Origin: a bacterium
Lineage (GTDB): Bacteria; Auribacterota; Tritonobacteria; UBA1439
Assembly: GCA_028716845.1 (NCBI GenBank)
Contig: JAQUPF010000018.1
Location: 1-43,096, forward strand
Length of the DNA stretch: 43,096 bases
Direction: 5' to 3'
Of the stretch, positions 9,825 to 40,706 are shown in pieces. Positions within the stretch are counted from its first letter, which is position 1. Each line of letters begins with the position of its first letter. The notes under the pieces are model-generated. The model had not been told where the DNA came from and did not search any database. It worked only from the letters and a program-made list of their open reading frames with translations. A program made the position numbers and the translations under genes.

Positions 9825-10652
9825 GTGCCGGAGACATTCGACCTCGGGAAGGTCAAGGCGTTCTTCCTCGAGAAGAAGAAGAGCCTCCAGGAGGAGATCA
9901 CGACCCGCTCGTACGTGGCGGATCCTGATCCCACCGATGAGGGCGTCGATTCCCGCGTCGTCGTGTTCGCCGACCCCTCCTGCCACGTCGCGGAGCAGTA
10001 CCGCACCATCCGCACGAACCTGCTGTCGCTGAGCCCTGACAACCCGCTCCAGGCGATCCAGATCACGAGCGCCCTCCACTCCGAGGGGAAGACGATCACG
10101 AGCTGCAACCTCGCCTTCGCCCTCGCCCAGGACGCCGAGAAGAAGACGGTCCTCGTGGACGCGGACATGCGGAAGCCGGCCATCCACAAGCTCCTCGGCA
10201 TCCCGAAGGAGCCGGGGCTCTCCGAGATCCTCACCAAGGATTTCGACCTCGACCATTTCATCCAGCGCCCGGTGGCGGGCGGCCTCTATGCCATCCCGGC
10301 CGGGAAGGGGCCGGCCAATCCCTCGGAGCTCCTCTCCTCCTCGCGGCTCCGCCGGATGGTGGCGCGCCTCCGCTCCGACTTCGACTATGTCCTGTTCGAC
10401 GTCTCGCCCGTCATCCCGGTCACGGACGCGTGCGTCCTCGGCAAGCAGCTCGACGGCAGCATCCTCATCATCCGCGCGGGCTGGACGCAGGCGATCGACA
10501 TCGAGCGGGCGCATTCCCTCCTCAGGGAGGCGCAGGCCAAGCCGATCGGCTCGGTCCTCACCTGCGTCGTGAGCTACATCCCGTACTACCTGTACCGGTA
10601 CCGCTACATCTACTCCCACTACGCCCGTCCCTACGTCTACTACGGCCCCTGA
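9825..10652 (+). CDS. CpsD/CapB-type tyrosine kinase (BY-kinase)
   Basis: This 275-aa cytoplasmic P-loop ATPase has the BY-kinase pattern. Walker A is SALHSEGKTITS (about 82-93), Walker A' is VLVDADMRKP (109-118) and Walker B is YVLFDVSPV (188-196), where DTPP is more usual. The activating EQYRTIRTNL helix is at about 57-66. The C-terminal tail is exceptionally tyrosine-rich, with 11 Tyr in the last 25 residues (251-273). This is the expected autophosphorylation cluster. In known systems, cycling of such a cluster controls assembly of the Wzz-kinase complex and polymer export. It starts with GTG, preceded by AGGAGGGCGG. The free-standing form, as in CapA/CapB systems, goes with the separate Wzz-like gene upstream. 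Confidence 0.88.
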   Translation: MPETFDLGKVKAFFLEKKKSLQEEITTRSYVADPDPTDEGVDSRVVVFADPSCHVAEQYRTIRTNLLSLSPDNPLQAIQITSALHSEGKTITSCNLAFALAQDAEKKTVLVDADMRKPAIHKLLGIPKEPGLSEILTKDFDLDHFIQRPVAGGLYAIPAGKGPANPSELLSSSRLRRMVARLRSDFDYVLFDVSPVIPVTDACVLGKQLDGSILIIRAGWTQAIDIERAHSLLREAQAKPIGSVLTCVVSYIPYYLYRYRYIYSHYARPYVYYGP

Positions 10653-24319: not shown

Positions 24320-24386
24320 AGAGGATACACCGTCCCGGCCCGCGCGGTCAAGCCGCAGCGCGCCACGGAGGCATCATGCACTCCCG

Positions 24387-24522
24387 GCCGCGGATCTCCA
24401 CGGATGACGGACGGATATCCACGGATTGCGTGTTCACCTTTCCACCTTCAGCCTTGAACTTTCTGCTGTAGTCGGGATCCGTGTGAATCCGTAGTGATCC
24501 GTGCGAATCAGTGGTCGATTGG
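24387..24522 (+). repeat. dispersed palindromic repeat, CGGAT family, copy 1
   Basis: Left arm: CGGAT at 24391, 24401, 24412 and 24422. Right arm: ATCCG at 24477, 24487 and 24497, with a degenerate ATCAG at 24507. The spacing is 10 bp, once 11. A roughly 50-bp core (about 24427-24476) lies between the arms and contains TTCAGCCTTGAACTTTCTGC. The core and right arm match the copy at 30358-30459 in inverted orientation. This fills most of the gap between the lipoprotein gene and thrS. Confidence 0.85.
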
Positions 24523-24558
24523 TGCTTCTGGATCGCGCGCATCCGGCGCCGAATCGGC

Positions 24559-32216: not shown

Positions 32217-32250
32217 CGCATCAGGGTGGCGGCCACGAGGTGCTTCCCTG

Positions 32251-32424
32251 CCGCGGATTGGCGCGGATGACGGATACTTCCTCCCGCCACAGAGATCACG
32301 GAGACCACAGAGCATCCGGAGGAGGCATCCCGTCCAATCTGCATTCACCAGTATGAATCAGCGGCAGAACCACTATCCTCCGTGTTCTCTGTGTCCTCTG
32401 TGTCCGCTCTGTGATCTCTGTGGC
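32251..32424 (+). repeat. composite palindromic repeat, CGGAT remnant plus CACAGAG arms
   Basis: Starts with CGGAT at 32254, 32264 and 32271. An 18-bp inverted repeat follows with one mismatch: 32286-32303 against 32407-32424, built from CACAGAG-like words. The far arm holds CTCCGTG/CTCTGTG words at about 9-11 bp spacing between 32378 and 32422. It occupies most of the 308-nt gap between murJ and the metallophosphoesterase gene. Confidence 0.8.
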
Positions 32425-35671: not shown

Positions 35672-38056
35672 TCACCCCGACTTCCCGCGTCTTCCTGCCG
35701 CGCAGGCGATCGCGAGGGCGGCCGCGGTGAGGCAGGAGACGAGCAGCCCGGCCCGCAGCCCCGGCGGCCGGTAGCGCATCCGGACGGCGTGCCTGCCGGA
35801 CTCCAGGCGAATCCCCCTGAATATGCCGTTGACCCGCACGAGGGGGGCGGGCCCGCCGCCGGCCGTCGCCGTCCAGCCCGGCGCCCACACCTCGCCCGTG
35901 CACAGGTAGGCCGGCAGGCCGGTCTCCACCTCCATTGTGATCCGGTTCGGGCCGTGCCGCGCCATTCCCACCGGCCGGTACGGCTCGCCCCCCGCGAGCG
36001 GCGGCGCGTCCCGGGGGACGATCGCCTCCCGTCTCGGATCGAGCATCCCGAGCGCCGCCCGCTCCCCGCCGGGGGGAGGGCGGACGGCCGAGGGGACGAG
36101 CCACGCCGCGGGGAGCATCCCGGGATCGCGGTGGAGATAGAGGCGCGGAATCACGCCCCGTCCGATGAACTGCCGGAAGACGGGCACGTCGTCGAACACG
36201 GCCGCGGGGGCATACGGCGGCGGAAGGCGCGGCGACTCCGAGATGATCCATTCGGTCCCGAGGAGGGAGAGCATCGCCGGCCGCGCCACCCGGGGAACGG
36301 TGAGCGACCAGCGGGGGAGGGGGGACGTCCTGATACCCGCCGCGGCGTCGAGGAAGCGGGCGTACCACTCGAAATTGACCGGCGTGTAGCCGTCCGCGCG
36401 GGAGACACGCGCGGCGACGCTGTCGTAATAGGGAAGCGCCGTGAGGAAGGCCGCGCCGGGCGGCGGCGTCATGTCGAGGAGCCGACCACCCCCGCGCGCC
36501 GCCGCCTCCGTGAGCCTCGACCGCGGGTAGAGCTCGGCGAGCGGACGGACCTCCGCGACGGCCCCTCCGAAGAGGCGGAGGTCGGCGAGGGAGAGGGCGA
36601 CGAGGGCGGCGGGCCCGAGCCGCCCGATGCGCCGGCCGCCGCAGAGGGCGCAGACGGCGGCGGCGGCGAGGATCGCGAGCTGGGCGGCGGCGGAACGGGC
36701 GACCGCCGTCCGATGCGCGGCGCACCCGGCGCTCGCCGCATCCATGGACGGCGCGATGCCGGCGCCGAAAAAGGCCCGCGCGCGGTCGCGGGAGCGGCGC
36801 ATGAGCTCGTCCTCCCCCCGCCGCAGGTGGCCGCCGCACGAGACGGCGAGGGCGATCCCGATCGCGGCGAGCGCGACCGCCGTGCGCGGACAGCGCGCCC
36901 CCCGCTCCCGCGTCCGCCGGAACCCGTCGAGTCCCCTCGCCGAGAGCATCGCGAGGAAGAGCGGCGTGAAGGCGAGCATACGGCCGGGATTCCTGAAGGC
37001 GCCGAGAGGGGGGAACGCGCGGAGGAGGATCCGGTGGAGGGGGGCGAGCTCCCGGAGGGAGAGGAACACCGCGATCGCGGCCGGAATCCCCCAGAGGGCG
37101 AGGTCGCGCCTCCCGTCACGCGTCCCGCACAGGGCCGCCGCCAGGGCGAGCGGGACGAGGCCGACGTAGACCGCCGATTCCCACGGGAGCGCGCCGCCCG
37201 CGCCGAATTCGCCCGCGAAGAGCGGATTCAGCAGGAGGCGGGCGTCGCCCCACCCCGGCATGAGCGAGAACAGCTCGCCGCCGAGCGGCCGGGCGCGCGT
37301 GAGGAGCGGGAAGAGGCGCAGGCCGGGCAGGAGGCAGAACGCCCCGAGGGCCGGCGCGACGAGGATCCCGAGCGCGACGCAGGCGAGGGGACGGAACGGC
37401 GATATCGGGCGCGAGAGCCGGAGCCGCAGGAGGGCGTGCGCGATGATGAAGAAGACGAGGTAGGCGAGGAACTGGAACTCGAGCGGGAGCATGGCGAGAA
37501 GGAGCGCGAGGGCGAGGAGCGACGCCGACCGGGCCGACGGCCGCGCGAGGCACCGCTCGGCGGCGAGGAAGGGGAGCGGGACGAGCGCGTAGATGATCAT
37601 GCGGGAGTAGAGCCCCGCCTGGACGTGCGACAGGCCCCTCGATCCGATCGAGAAGACGAGCGCGGCGAGGAGCGAAGCGGGACGCGAGCAGCCCGCGCGC
37701 CGAGCGAGGGCGTGCATCAGGAGGCCGGCGAGGAACAGGTGCAGGAGGAAGCCGGCGTTGAGCGCGAGCGCCGGCGGGAGCGGGTGGAGGAGGAGGTGCG
37801 GGAAGGCGAAGAGCGGGTAGAGCGGGTTGGGGAACGCCGGCGTCCCGGCGCACTCGTACGGGTTCCAGAACGGCAGGCACCGGTCCTCGAGGAGGGACCT
37901 CCTGATGAACAGCTGGTGCGGCAGGAACTGCGTGATGGCGTCGCTGGAGGCGGAGGCGAGGAGGCGCGACGGCAGGAAGACCGACGGCGGAAAGAGGGAG
38001 AGGATGACGGCGAGGAGGACGAGGATGACCGCGAGGTCGGAGCGCGCGATCTTCAT
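35672..38056 (-). CDS. YfhO-like large membrane protein (probable GT-C fold)
   Basis: This 794-aa protein has a signal-anchor span at residues 7-25, a first loop reading SSDAITQFLPHQLFIRRSLLEDRCLPFWNPYECAGTPAF, and about a dozen hydrophobic segments up to residue 550. A periplasmic beta-rich region and a last span near the C-terminus follow. The loop with its acidic residue and FWNPY, and the late AYLCTGEVWAPGWTA segment, match the YfhO pattern. YfhO proteins are implicated in glycosylating teichoic acids in Firmicutes; in Gram-negatives the role is open. The start at 38056 gives the membrane anchor. Longer in-frame starts lie at or upstream of the predicted transcript start. Confidence 0.75.
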   Translation of the reverse strand: MKIARSDLAVILVLLAVILSLFPPSVFLPSRLLASASSDAITQFLPHQLFIRRSLLEDRCLPFWNPYECAGTPAFPNPLYPLFAFPHLLLHPLPPALALNAGFLLHLFLAGLLMHALARRAGCSRPASLLAALVFSIGSRGLSHVQAGLYSRMIIYALVPLPFLAAERCLARPSARSASLLALALLLAMLPLEFQFLAYLVFFIIAHALLRLRLSRPISPFRPLACVALGILVAPALGAFCLLPGLRLFPLLTRARPLGGELFSLMPGWGDARLLLNPLFAGEFGAGGALPWESAVYVGLVPLALAAALCGTRDGRRDLALWGIPAAIAVFLSLRELAPLHRILLRAFPPLGAFRNPGRMLAFTPLFLAMLSARGLDGFRRTRERGARCPRTAVALAAIGIALAVSCGGHLRRGEDELMRRSRDRARAFFGAGIAPSMDAASAGCAAHRTAVARSAAAQLAILAAAAVCALCGGRRIGRLGPAALVALSLADLRLFGGAVAEVRPLAELYPRSRLTEAAARGGGRLLDMTPPPGAAFLTALPYYDSVAARVSRADGYTPVNFEWYARFLDAAAGIRTSPLPRWSLTVPRVARPAMLSLLGTEWIISESPRLPPPYAPAAVFDDVPVFRQFIGRGVIPRLYLHRDPGMLPAAWLVPSAVRPPPGGERAALGMLDPRREAIVPRDAPPLAGGEPYRPVGMARHGPNRITMEVETGLPAYLCTGEVWAPGWTATAGGGPAPLVRVNGIFRGIRLESGRHAVRMRYRPPGLRAGLLVSCLTAAALAIACAAGRRGKSG

Positions 38057-38170: not shown

Positions 38171-38200
38171 ACTATAGCCCATGGGAGACGGTCGCGACAA
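38171..38200 (-). promoter_or_regulatory. predicted promoter for the YfhO-like gene
   Basis: On the minus strand: TTGTCG (38200-38195), an 18-nt spacer and TATAGT (38176-38171). Predicted start about 38164, giving a GC-rich leader of roughly 108 nt. The -35 box is five bases from the repeat array. Confidence 0.5.
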
Positions 38201-38204
38201 CCGT

Positions 38205-38565
38205 CATGAATCCGCGGTGGATTGGTTCCTTATGAACCACGAGCCGCGGATCTACACGGATACTTACGGATATGCACGGATTCCTTGAAGTATCCGCGAT
38301 GATCCGTAAGAATCCGCGGTAATCCGCGGTGGATTGGTTCCTTATGAACCACGAGCCGCGGATCTACACGGATACTTACGGATATGCACGGATTCCACTT
38401 CATCAGTGGATATCCGTGATGATCAGTTTGAATCCGCGGTGAATTGGTGCCTTATGAACCACGAGCCGCGGATCTTCACGGATACTTACGGATATGCACG
38501 GATTCCTTGAAGTATCCGCGATGATCCGTAAGAATCCGCGGTAATCCGCGGTGGATTGGTTCCTT
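38205..38565 (+). repeat. three-unit tandem array of helically phased palindromes
   Basis: Three units of 110-112 bp start at about 38229, 38341 and 38451, preceded by a partial unit from 38205. In unit 1 CGGAT lies at 38247, 38257, 38267 and 38277, and ATCCG at 38292, 38302, 38312 and 38322; each series has an exact 10-bp period. Unit 3 repeats this at 38469-38499 and 38514-38544 and differs from unit 1 by about one base. Unit 2 has a diverged right arm. Each unit could form a long imperfect hairpin. It lies between the divergent YfhO-like and EF-G-like genes. Confidence 0.92.
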
Positions 38566-38594
38566 GTCCCTTCGACTTTGGGCGGCGTTGGCCC

Positions 38595-38624
38595 TTGCCT
38601 CCGCGCCCCCCGCCCTGCTATAGT
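38595..38624 (+). promoter_or_regulatory. predicted promoter for the EF-G-like gene
   Basis: TTGCCT (38595-38600), an 18-nt spacer and TATAGT (38619-38624) with an upstream TGC making an extended -10. The predicted start near 38631 leaves about 54 nt to the ATG at 38685. The array ends 30 nt upstream of the -35 box. Confidence 0.6.
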
Positions 38625-38684: not shown

Positions 38685-40706
38685 ATGAAGGGGATGCCCG
38701 TAGAGAAGGTGAGGAACCTCGCGCTCATCGGCCACGGCGGCGCCGGCAAGACGAGCCTCCTCGACGCGATGCTGTTCCTCGCCGGCGCCAGCGACCGGCA
38801 CGGGAGGGTGGACGCCGGCTCGTCGATCGGGGACTCGAGCGACGAGGAGCGGGAGCGCCGGATCAGCATCCAGTCCCACCCGCTCCACTGCGCCTGGAAG
38901 GGGCACGGCATCTTCGTCACGGACACCCCCGGCTACGCGGATTTCATCGGCGACGTCGCGTGCGCCCTGCGGGTCGCCGACGCGGCGATCGTGGTGGTGG
39001 ACGCCCTCGCGGGGGTGGATGTGGGGACGATCCGCGGGTGGCGGTTCGCCGACCAGCACGGCCTCCCGCGGGCAATCTTCATCAACAAACTCGACAAGGA
39101 GAACACGGATTTCGCGAAGTGCCTCGAGTCCGTGCGGGCGAGCTTCGGCGACCGGTGCATCCCGGTCGTCCTCCCCGTCGGCGCCCGGAGCGGCCTCGCC
39201 GGCGCCGCGGCCGTGCTCGGGGAGGGCGGCGATATCCCGGCCGATCTGCAGGCGGCGGCGGCGAAGGCGGGGGAGCGGCTCGCCGAGGCGGCCGCGGAGA
39301 CCGATGACACGCTCCTGGAGAAGTATCTCGAGGCGGGAGGGCTCTCCGCCCGGGAGCTGCACCCCGCCCTCCGAGCGGCGGTCCGGGGGGGCTCCCTCGT
39401 GCCGGTCTTCTGCGGCTCCGCGGAGACCGAGGCGGGTGTGAAGGAGCTCCTCGACGGCATCTGCGACCTCTTCCCGTCGCCCGAGGACCGGGGCGAGGTG
39501 AAGGCGAAGGAGGGCGCCGTCAGGCCCCGGCGGGAGGAGCCGTTCAGCGCCCTCGTCTTCAAGAGCGTGACGGATCCGTTCGTCGGTCAGCTCACGTACT
39601 TCCGCGTCTGTTCCGGCACGGTCGAGCCGAACGGCTCCTTCTCCAACGCGAGCAAGGGGGAATCGGAGCGGTTCGGCCATCTCTACCTCATCAGGGGGAA
39701 GGAGCAGATCGCCGTCGACGAGGCCGGCCCCGGCGACATCGTCGCCGTCGCCAAGCTGAAGCACACCGGCGTCGGCGACAGCCTCTGCGCCGAGGGGAGG
39801 ACGGTCGTCTTCGAGGACCTCTGGCTGCCGAGGCCGGTCATCTCGTTCGCCGTCTACGCGAAGAAGCGCGGCGACGAGGAGAAGATCGCCGCGGGCCTCC
39901 AGCGGATCACCCAGGACGACCCCACCCTCCGGATCACGCGGGACGCGGAGACGAAGGAGTTCATCCTCTCGGGGATGGGCGACCTCCACATCGAGACCGT
40001 GGTCCAGCGGCTCAGGAACAAGTTCGGCGTCGAGGTGGACCTCCGCCTCCCGACCGTCCCCTACAAGGAGACGATCACGGTCCGGGCCGAGGGGCACGAG
40101 CGGCACAAGAAGCAGACGGGCGGGCGGGGGCAGTTCGCCGAGGTCTACATCCGGGTCGAGCCGATGGAGCGGGGGGCGGGGTTCGAGTTCGTGGACGATA
40201 TCGTCGGCGGCGTCATCCCGAGGGGGTATCTGCCGGCGGTCGAGAAGGGGGTGCGGGGGGCGATGCGCACCGGCGTGGTGGCGGGCTTCCCCGTCGTGGA
40301 CGTCCGCGTGAGCTGCTACGACGGCTCCTACCACGACGTGGACTCCTCGAACCTCTCGTTCGAGCTCGCCGGTTCGAAGGCGTTCAAGGACGCGATGGGG
40401 AAGGCGAGGCCCGTCCTGCTGGAGCCGATCTGCACCCTCGAGGTCACCGTGCCGGCGGAGTACATGGGCGCGATCACGGGCGACCTGAACAGCAAGCGGG
40501 GCCGCATCATGGGGATGGAGAGCATGGGCGATCTCCAGAAGATCAAGGCCCAGATCCCGCTGGCGGAGGTGCTCCGCTACTGCACCGAGCTCCGCTCGCT
40601 CACCGGCGGCAGGGGGACGTTCGAGCTGGACGTCGCCTTCTACGAGGAGGTGCCCGCCGGCCTCCTCCCGAGGATCGTCGCCGCGACGAAGAAGGCGGAG
40701 GAGTGA
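38685..40706 (+). CDS. elongation factor G-like translational GTPase (EF-G2 type)
   Basis: This 673-aa GTPase has the EF-G domain order. The G domain shows GHGGAGKTS (16-24), DTPGYADF (80-87) and NKLDKE. Domain II and domain III follow (SGMGDLHIETVVQRLRNKFGVEV), then domain IV (HKKQTGGRGQFAEVYIRVEP) and domain V (PICTLEVTVPAEYMGAITGDLNSKRGRIMGME). Tyr replaces the catalytic His of DTPGH, as is usual in the EF-G-like/EF-G2 paralogue group, so it is probably not the main elongation factor. Some paralogues act in ribosome recycling or have weak GTPase activity; the exact role here is unknown. AAAGGA precedes the ATG at 38685. Confidence 0.88.
   Translation: MKGMPVEKVRNLALIGHGGAGKTSLLDAMLFLAGASDRHGRVDAGSSIGDSSDEERERRISIQSHPLHCAWKGHGIFVTDTPGYADFIGDVACALRVADAAIVVVDALAGVDVGTIRGWRFADQHGLPRAIFINKLDKENTDFAKCLESVRASFGDRCIPVVLPVGARSGLAGAAAVLGEGGDIPADLQAAAAKAGERLAEAAAETDDTLLEKYLEAGGLSARELHPALRAAVRGGSLVPVFCGSAETEAGVKELLDGICDLFPSPEDRGEVKAKEGAVRPRREEPFSALVFKSVTDPFVGQLTYFRVCSGTVEPNGSFSNASKGESERFGHLYLIRGKEQIAVDEAGPGDIVAVAKLKHTGVGDSLCAEGRTVVFEDLWLPRPVISFAVYAKKRGDEEKIAAGLQRITQDDPTLRITRDAETKEFILSGMGDLHIETVVQRLRNKFGVEVDLRLPTVPYKETITVRAEGHERHKKQTGGRGQFAEVYIRVEPMERGAGFEFVDDIVGGVIPRGYLPAVEKGVRGAMRTGVVAGFPVVDVRVSCYDGSYHDVDSSNLSFELAGSKAFKDAMGKARPVLLEPICTLEVTVPAEYMGAITGDLNSKRGRIMGMESMGDLQKIKAQIPLAEVLRYCTELRSLTGGRGTFELDVAFYEEVPAGLLPRIVAATKKAEE

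Follow-up and report, generated by a model that had tools for sequence, protein, structure and literature searches.

Among the closest described counterparts of the repeat analysed here are REP elements and BIMEs with their RAYT transposases (GTAG and CGTC families, PMC3733652), intergenic palindromes of 20–40 bp that reach high copy number, lie near stop codons, occur in tandem or in clusters and lack target-site duplications (TSDs). The TIR-type families of TIRYT transposases (PMC3733652) consist of repeated long inverted repeats, some of them self-complementary, at moderate copy number. Non-coding palindromes of 100–170 bp, each dispersed within one lineage and with no known transposase, are represented by YAPL/RU-2 (about 168 bp), RU-3 and the Rickettsia RPEs (review PMC2229807). 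IS66 elements make 8-bp direct repeats (table in PMC3281130), a signature that becomes relevant below. The family described here is likewise high-copy, intergenic, clustered, found near stop codons and free of detectable TSDs as REPs are, but its copies are about 125 bp long, carry neither a GTAG nor a CGTC tag, show no RAYT association, have a 10-bp internal period and are strongly depleted between convergent genes. Its length range, its non-coding character, its dispersal within a lineage and its want of a known transposase recall YAPL/RU-2, RU-3 and RPEs; a term search of that review's text revealed no phased words, and RPEs enter genes, which this family does not. It resembles the TIRYT families in its repeated long inverted repeats, but no Y1 transposase gene of the genome is flanked by its words. 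A search of the open-access literature yielded no description of the word strings or of phased palindromes, and phage and plasmid records contained no match to the repeat.

The window is the whole 43,096-nt stretch of DNA analysed, part of a 2.68 Mb draft genome in 36 contigs. It contains a tandem array built from CGGAT and its complement ATCCG (Tandem Repeats Finder: 38207-38565, period 112, 3.2 copies). CGGAT starts at 38247/57/67/77, 38359/69/79/89 and 38469/79/89/99 and ATCCG at 38292/302/312/322 and 38514/24/34/44, in each case at the exact 10-bp steps reported in an earlier note on this DNA, and no other 5-mer recurs at least four times at a constant step of 8–13 bp anywhere in the window. 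The three tandem palindromic units of that note were recovered (112, 110 and about 112 bp); it had missed the truncated end of a further unit at about 38206–38233 (plus strand), marked by the right-arm tail ATCCGCGGTGGATTGGTTCCTTAT and the junction GGATTGGTTCCTTATGAACCACGAGCC at 38219. This unit number is that of the draft assembly. All three full units lie on the plus strand and were matched by covariance model R1: unit 1 (38234..38345; match 38226-38346, 126 bits) has four CGGAT from 38247 and four ATCCG from 38292, unit 2 (38346..38455; match 38338-38456, 121 bits) has four CGGAT from 38359 and a right arm of mixed ATCCG and ATCAG, and unit 3 (38456..38565; match 38448-38568, 125 bits) has four CGGAT from 38469 and four ATCCG from 38514. 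Units 1 and 3 are nearly identical, as had been claimed (98%, 110/112), with unit 2 at 78–79%. The right arm of unit 2 had been taken to be simply worn; instead, unit 2 has a loop and right arm of the genome's common form (TCCACTTC..ATCAGTGGATATCCGTGATGATCAG), and units 1 and 3 have a rarer loop and right-arm form that is present too at C29. The array is therefore a mosaic of two subfamilies, and the recent duplication proposed in the note is supported in part, by the identity of units 1 and 3. The head-to-tail junction GGTTC-CTTAT-GAACC is common to three loci (C18, C11 and C29).

The placement of the array between divergent promoters was also borne out. A promoter scan found TTGTCG-18-TATAGT on the minus strand (38171..38200), just outside the array, and TTGCCT-18-TATAGT on the plus strand (38595..38624), 30 bp outside it, two flanking promoter-like sites against 0.4 expected. 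They belong to a divergent YfhO-type membrane protein gene on the left (35672..38056, minus strand; Pfam PF09586, E 6.5e-12) and an EF-G-type translational GTPase gene on the right (38685..40706, plus strand; Pfam EF-G domains, E to 5e-43). In the relative G023, which also contains CGGAT palindromes, the YfhO and EF-G genes face each other across a short gap (locus L320) with no palindrome array, so the array was either gained in the window lineage or lost in that of G023.

The array is one member of a large family. An unbiased scan of all 5-mers found that the strongest phased signal in the genome was CGGAT at a step of 10, with weaker signals for CAGAG at 9 and AAAGT at 7, and in 360 kb of the largest contig there were 38 phased arrays of CGGAT/ATCCG and none of four control words. 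BLASTN with the array matched 56 places, a pattern of three phased words matched 646 times against once for the reversed control, and a covariance model based on 15 of the copies identified 78 distinct palindromic copies. The genome scan that the earlier note had set as its refuting test thus supported the note, turning up hundreds of phased words and 78 full palindromes. One more full copy lies in the window itself (24370..24531, plus strand; R1 match, 78.6 bits), its loop holding a TTCAA-type palindrome. A copy is about 125 bp long, runs from CAATGAACC to GGTTCTTTG and has four words per arm; the consensus read from the copies is CAATGAACCacnnGCCR-CGGAT-cttCA-CGGAT-cattgA-CGGAT-attCA-CGGAT-loop-ATCCG-TGgnn-ATCCG-TAATG-ATCCG-TGnga-ATCCG-YGGTGGATTGGTTCTTTG, and the conserved unit is a 7-nt core, CRCGGAT, plus 3 variable nucleotides. 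Word number varies between copies and many are eroded. Successive exact words were separated by 10 bp in 132 cases and 11 bp in 20 on the left arm, and by 10 bp in 123 cases and 11 bp in 2 on the right. With mismatches allowed, 41 of 73 copies had an 11-bp middle step in the left arm; the exact 10-bp phase is therefore a property of the array and not of the family. Separately, two tandem pairs at C11:4495-4663 and 10248-10416, each of 83-bp weak model matches 86 bp apart, may be an unrelated tandem repeat.

With genes called by a model trained on the known genes of the window, all 78 copies were intergenic, 56 in tandem, 20 in divergent and 2 in convergent gaps, compared with 82, 34 and 17 for control gaps without a copy. 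The shortfall in convergent gaps was significant (Fisher p = 0.012; 1.8e-4 against gap length). In tandem gaps the copy began a median of 21.5 bp past the upstream stop and ended a median of 99.5 bp before the next start, and it was closer to the stop in 46 of 56. Orientation showed no bias relative to GC skew (36/75 copies). Single units fold into strong predicted hairpins (unit 1, z = -6.7 and -8.5). No double changes between arms occurred in 15 sequences, and no position had strong excess pairing among 72 copies (lowest p 0.02 among 35 positions). Since conservation is much higher in the words than in the 3 variable nucleotides and convincing covariation between arms is missing, it is the sequence rather than the pairing that is conserved. 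Between the arms, 83 of 438 variable spacers pair, against 120.5 expected from shuffling, an effect that diminishes among distant copies and is therefore not claimed as selection.

To see how such a palindrome can spread, the sister genus is the most informative. In G022, which belongs to another genus within the same bacterial family, a CGGAT palindrome forms the core of a recently amplified non-coding element of 160–168 bp with about 30 near-identical copies (91–100% identity). This element ends in GTAAGGGGTCA and TGACCCATTAC, which agree with the terminal inverted repeats (TIRs) GTAATGGGTCAGTTTCGG...CCAAAACTGACCCATTAC of the single resident IS66 transposase gene at 17/18 positions for the right end and 14/18 for the left. 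Perfect 8-bp TSDs flank four copies (CTGTGATT, GAATTTCC, CCGGAAGG, GGGCATAT); two others, L266 and L270, have both ends and no TSDs. The GTAA...TTAC ends and the 8-bp duplication identify the G022 element as an IS66-dependent MITE, though one with an interior that is a phased-word palindrome and not the relic of a transposase gene. Upstream of the IS66 transposase gene, a small gene (L296 710-1057) encodes a DUF6788 protein and no obvious TnpA/TnpB accessory. At contig ends (L274, L284, L285, L272), the element adjoins another repeat, GATTGTACACTTGTTCTTTTCGCCTTTG.ATGATTATCA, which may represent one end of an additional insertion sequence.

The window genome differs in each of these respects: its copies lack GTAA...TTAC ends, no IS66 gene is present, and 1350 offset tests detected no target duplications around the copies (best z 2.75). 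The CAATGAACC and GGTTCTTTG ends had no identified partner in the genome. Sequence conservation ends sharply at the copy boundaries, with random flanks beyond, and the copies are short, non-coding, dispersed (78 copies) and alike at their ends, as MITEs are; we do not class them as demonstrated MITEs here because no target-site duplications were detected around them. A 1-kb pair of opposite arms that resembled a transposon (C1:16059/17092) was rejected, its arms belonging to separate small palindromes.

Taken together, the array is best read as a dispersed mobile repeat, one of the possibilities named in the earlier note, rather than a one-off regulatory site: it is probably a small tandem cluster of a non-autonomous, non-coding, REP/MITE-like palindrome that has colonised intergenic DNA. 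In favour are the shared ends and wholly intergenic placement of the 78 copies, the G023 gene pair lacking the array, the head-to-tail junction common to three loci, the nesting of palindromes in loops and the IS66-type element of G022. For want of IS66, TSDs and GTAA...TTAC ends, the mobility of the window family is inferred from its dispersal and from the relative, and since the genome has no IS66, its copies would have been moved by another agent or by an enzyme since lost. The phased core may be an old palindrome family that spreads once its ends are, or become, substrates of a resident transposase; IS66 would spread it in G022, and a lost or unrecognised enzyme would have done so in the window genome. 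Copies would persist at harmless sites, either between two promoters or directly downstream of a stop codon, and the array itself would have arisen when a copy inserted between two promoters and was then duplicated in tandem. On this reading, what looked like a curiosity belongs to a large family of mobile repeats, for which one relative provides a definite vehicle, marked by IS66 ends and 8-bp duplications.

The strongest competitor is a multi-copy binding site, in which an architectural or regulatory host protein would read the words on one helical face and the copies would be kept as a genome-wide set. The CRCGGAT words outlasting their 3 variable nucleotides without convincing covariation, steps of 10 or 11 bp in almost every case, avoidance of convergent gaps so that copies lie upstream of at least one gene, and the same word and step in several phyla are all what such a site would predict. 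However, a spacing of 10-10-10 holds for some copies while others have an 11-bp step, and related families of this genome are spaced at 9 and 7 bp, so the multimeric protein on one helical face proposed in the earlier note is not established; word number is variable, many copies are eroded, no protein candidate was found and in G022 the core travels within a transposable element. We regard this explanation as improbable. Mobilisation of the copies as REP elements by a RAYT (Y1/HUH) transposase, a link that the note had suggested checking, would fit palindromic, intergenic repeats in tandem clusters near stop codons and without TSDs (PMC3733652), yet it is very unlikely given that the three Y1_Tnp genes of the window genome have no phased words within 1.5 kb on either side, and that Y1 count and repeat abundance are uncorrelated across 44 genomes of the phylum (G006 has 18 Y1 genes and no repeats, G000 has 3 and 146). 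The ends, in the consensus and in the copies, are neither GTAG nor CGTC, and REPs prefer unidirectional and convergent gaps (PMC3733652), which is at odds with 2 of 78 copies in the latter.

An RNA element acting in transcripts as a terminator, attenuator or processing hairpin would explain the strong predicted fold and the position near upstream stop codons in tandem pairs. It is, if anything, slightly less probable still: the array has no U-tract terminator, the GC-rich hairpin followed by a T-run being absent, an Rfam search matched no family, there were no compensatory base changes of the kind expected of a structured RNA, and the copies are almost missing between convergent genes, which bears out the earlier judgement that a simple terminator fits poorly. 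The array also lies upstream of both promoters and hence outside the expected transcripts. An assembly artefact or a simple tandem repeat made by slippage comes to mind with 36 contigs and an array that is hard to assemble, and is the least likely explanation of the array in view of 78 dispersed copies with unique flanks, a diverged internal unit 2 and relatives with the same design. For the family as a whole, the dispersed copies with unique flanks and the relatives refute it.

The design is not confined to this lineage. When about 85,000 genomes were scanned for four phased words, at least 110 stretches from many phyla matched, where chance would give well under one (an estimate from 23 fixed bases and about 5e11 positions). 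Among the 110 matches listed, 36 were partnered by an inverted arm no more than 260 bp away, compared with no partners for a control word; 24 were simple tandems lacking a partner, and for the other 50, which had varied spacers, no partner was found. Palindromes of CGGAT design among the matches listed came from Azospirillum, Kiloniellales, Chloroflexota, Phycisphaeraceae, Bryobacterales, Opitutaceae, Gallionella and others, and those with the CRCGGAT word occur in at least the Alphaproteobacteria, Chloroflexota, Planctomycetota, Verrucomicrobiota, Acidobacteriota and Bacteroidota. The scan covered the CGGAT word alone and is therefore no proof that CGGAT is special. Recurrence across phyla may stem from common descent, from transposons that captured the design repeatedly or from a recogniser that the lineages share. 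Because CGGAT palindromes occur in many phyla without evident IS66 ends, IS66 is not a general explanation. We consider it a doubtful, speculative idea that the CRCGGAT palindromes with a 10-nt period form one widespread class, which an undescribed, conserved DNA-handling machine would maintain or propagate by reading the phased words and which transposons such as IS66 would merely have captured. The distribution raises a testable question, namely why the same word and 10-nt rhythm, with non-pairing spacers, recur across many phyla.

Several further findings concern palindromes in the window genome and elsewhere. The CAGAG pattern has 132 genome matches against 31 in a control, and CAGAG/CTCTG is therefore a second phased palindrome family; the sister families use 9-bp (CAGAG) and 7-bp (AAAGT) steps. 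The loops of some CGGAT copies contain palindromes of other families (TTCAA-type and CTCTG-type), and at 32246..32420 (no strand assigned) degenerate CGGAT words surround 9-bp-phased CAGAG/CTCTG arms (CAGAG matches at C18:32290, 32378 and 32398). The nesting is reversed in G023, where a CGGAT palindrome lies within a CAGAG palindrome. Such nested, mutually inserted palindromes offer a tractable record of insertion of one repeat into another. At C3:13982, C3:40763, C3:61374 and C14:1541, an outer GTTGAAAG/CTTTCAAC palindrome encloses the CGGAT palindrome, as if the composite had spread as one unit. Lastly, in arms that are otherwise normal, within G022 MITE copies and Azospirillum loci (L079, L085, L118 and L132), small perfect hairpins (CCCGCTAAGCGGG; GCCGACGCAGTCGGC) take the place of one inter-word spacer.
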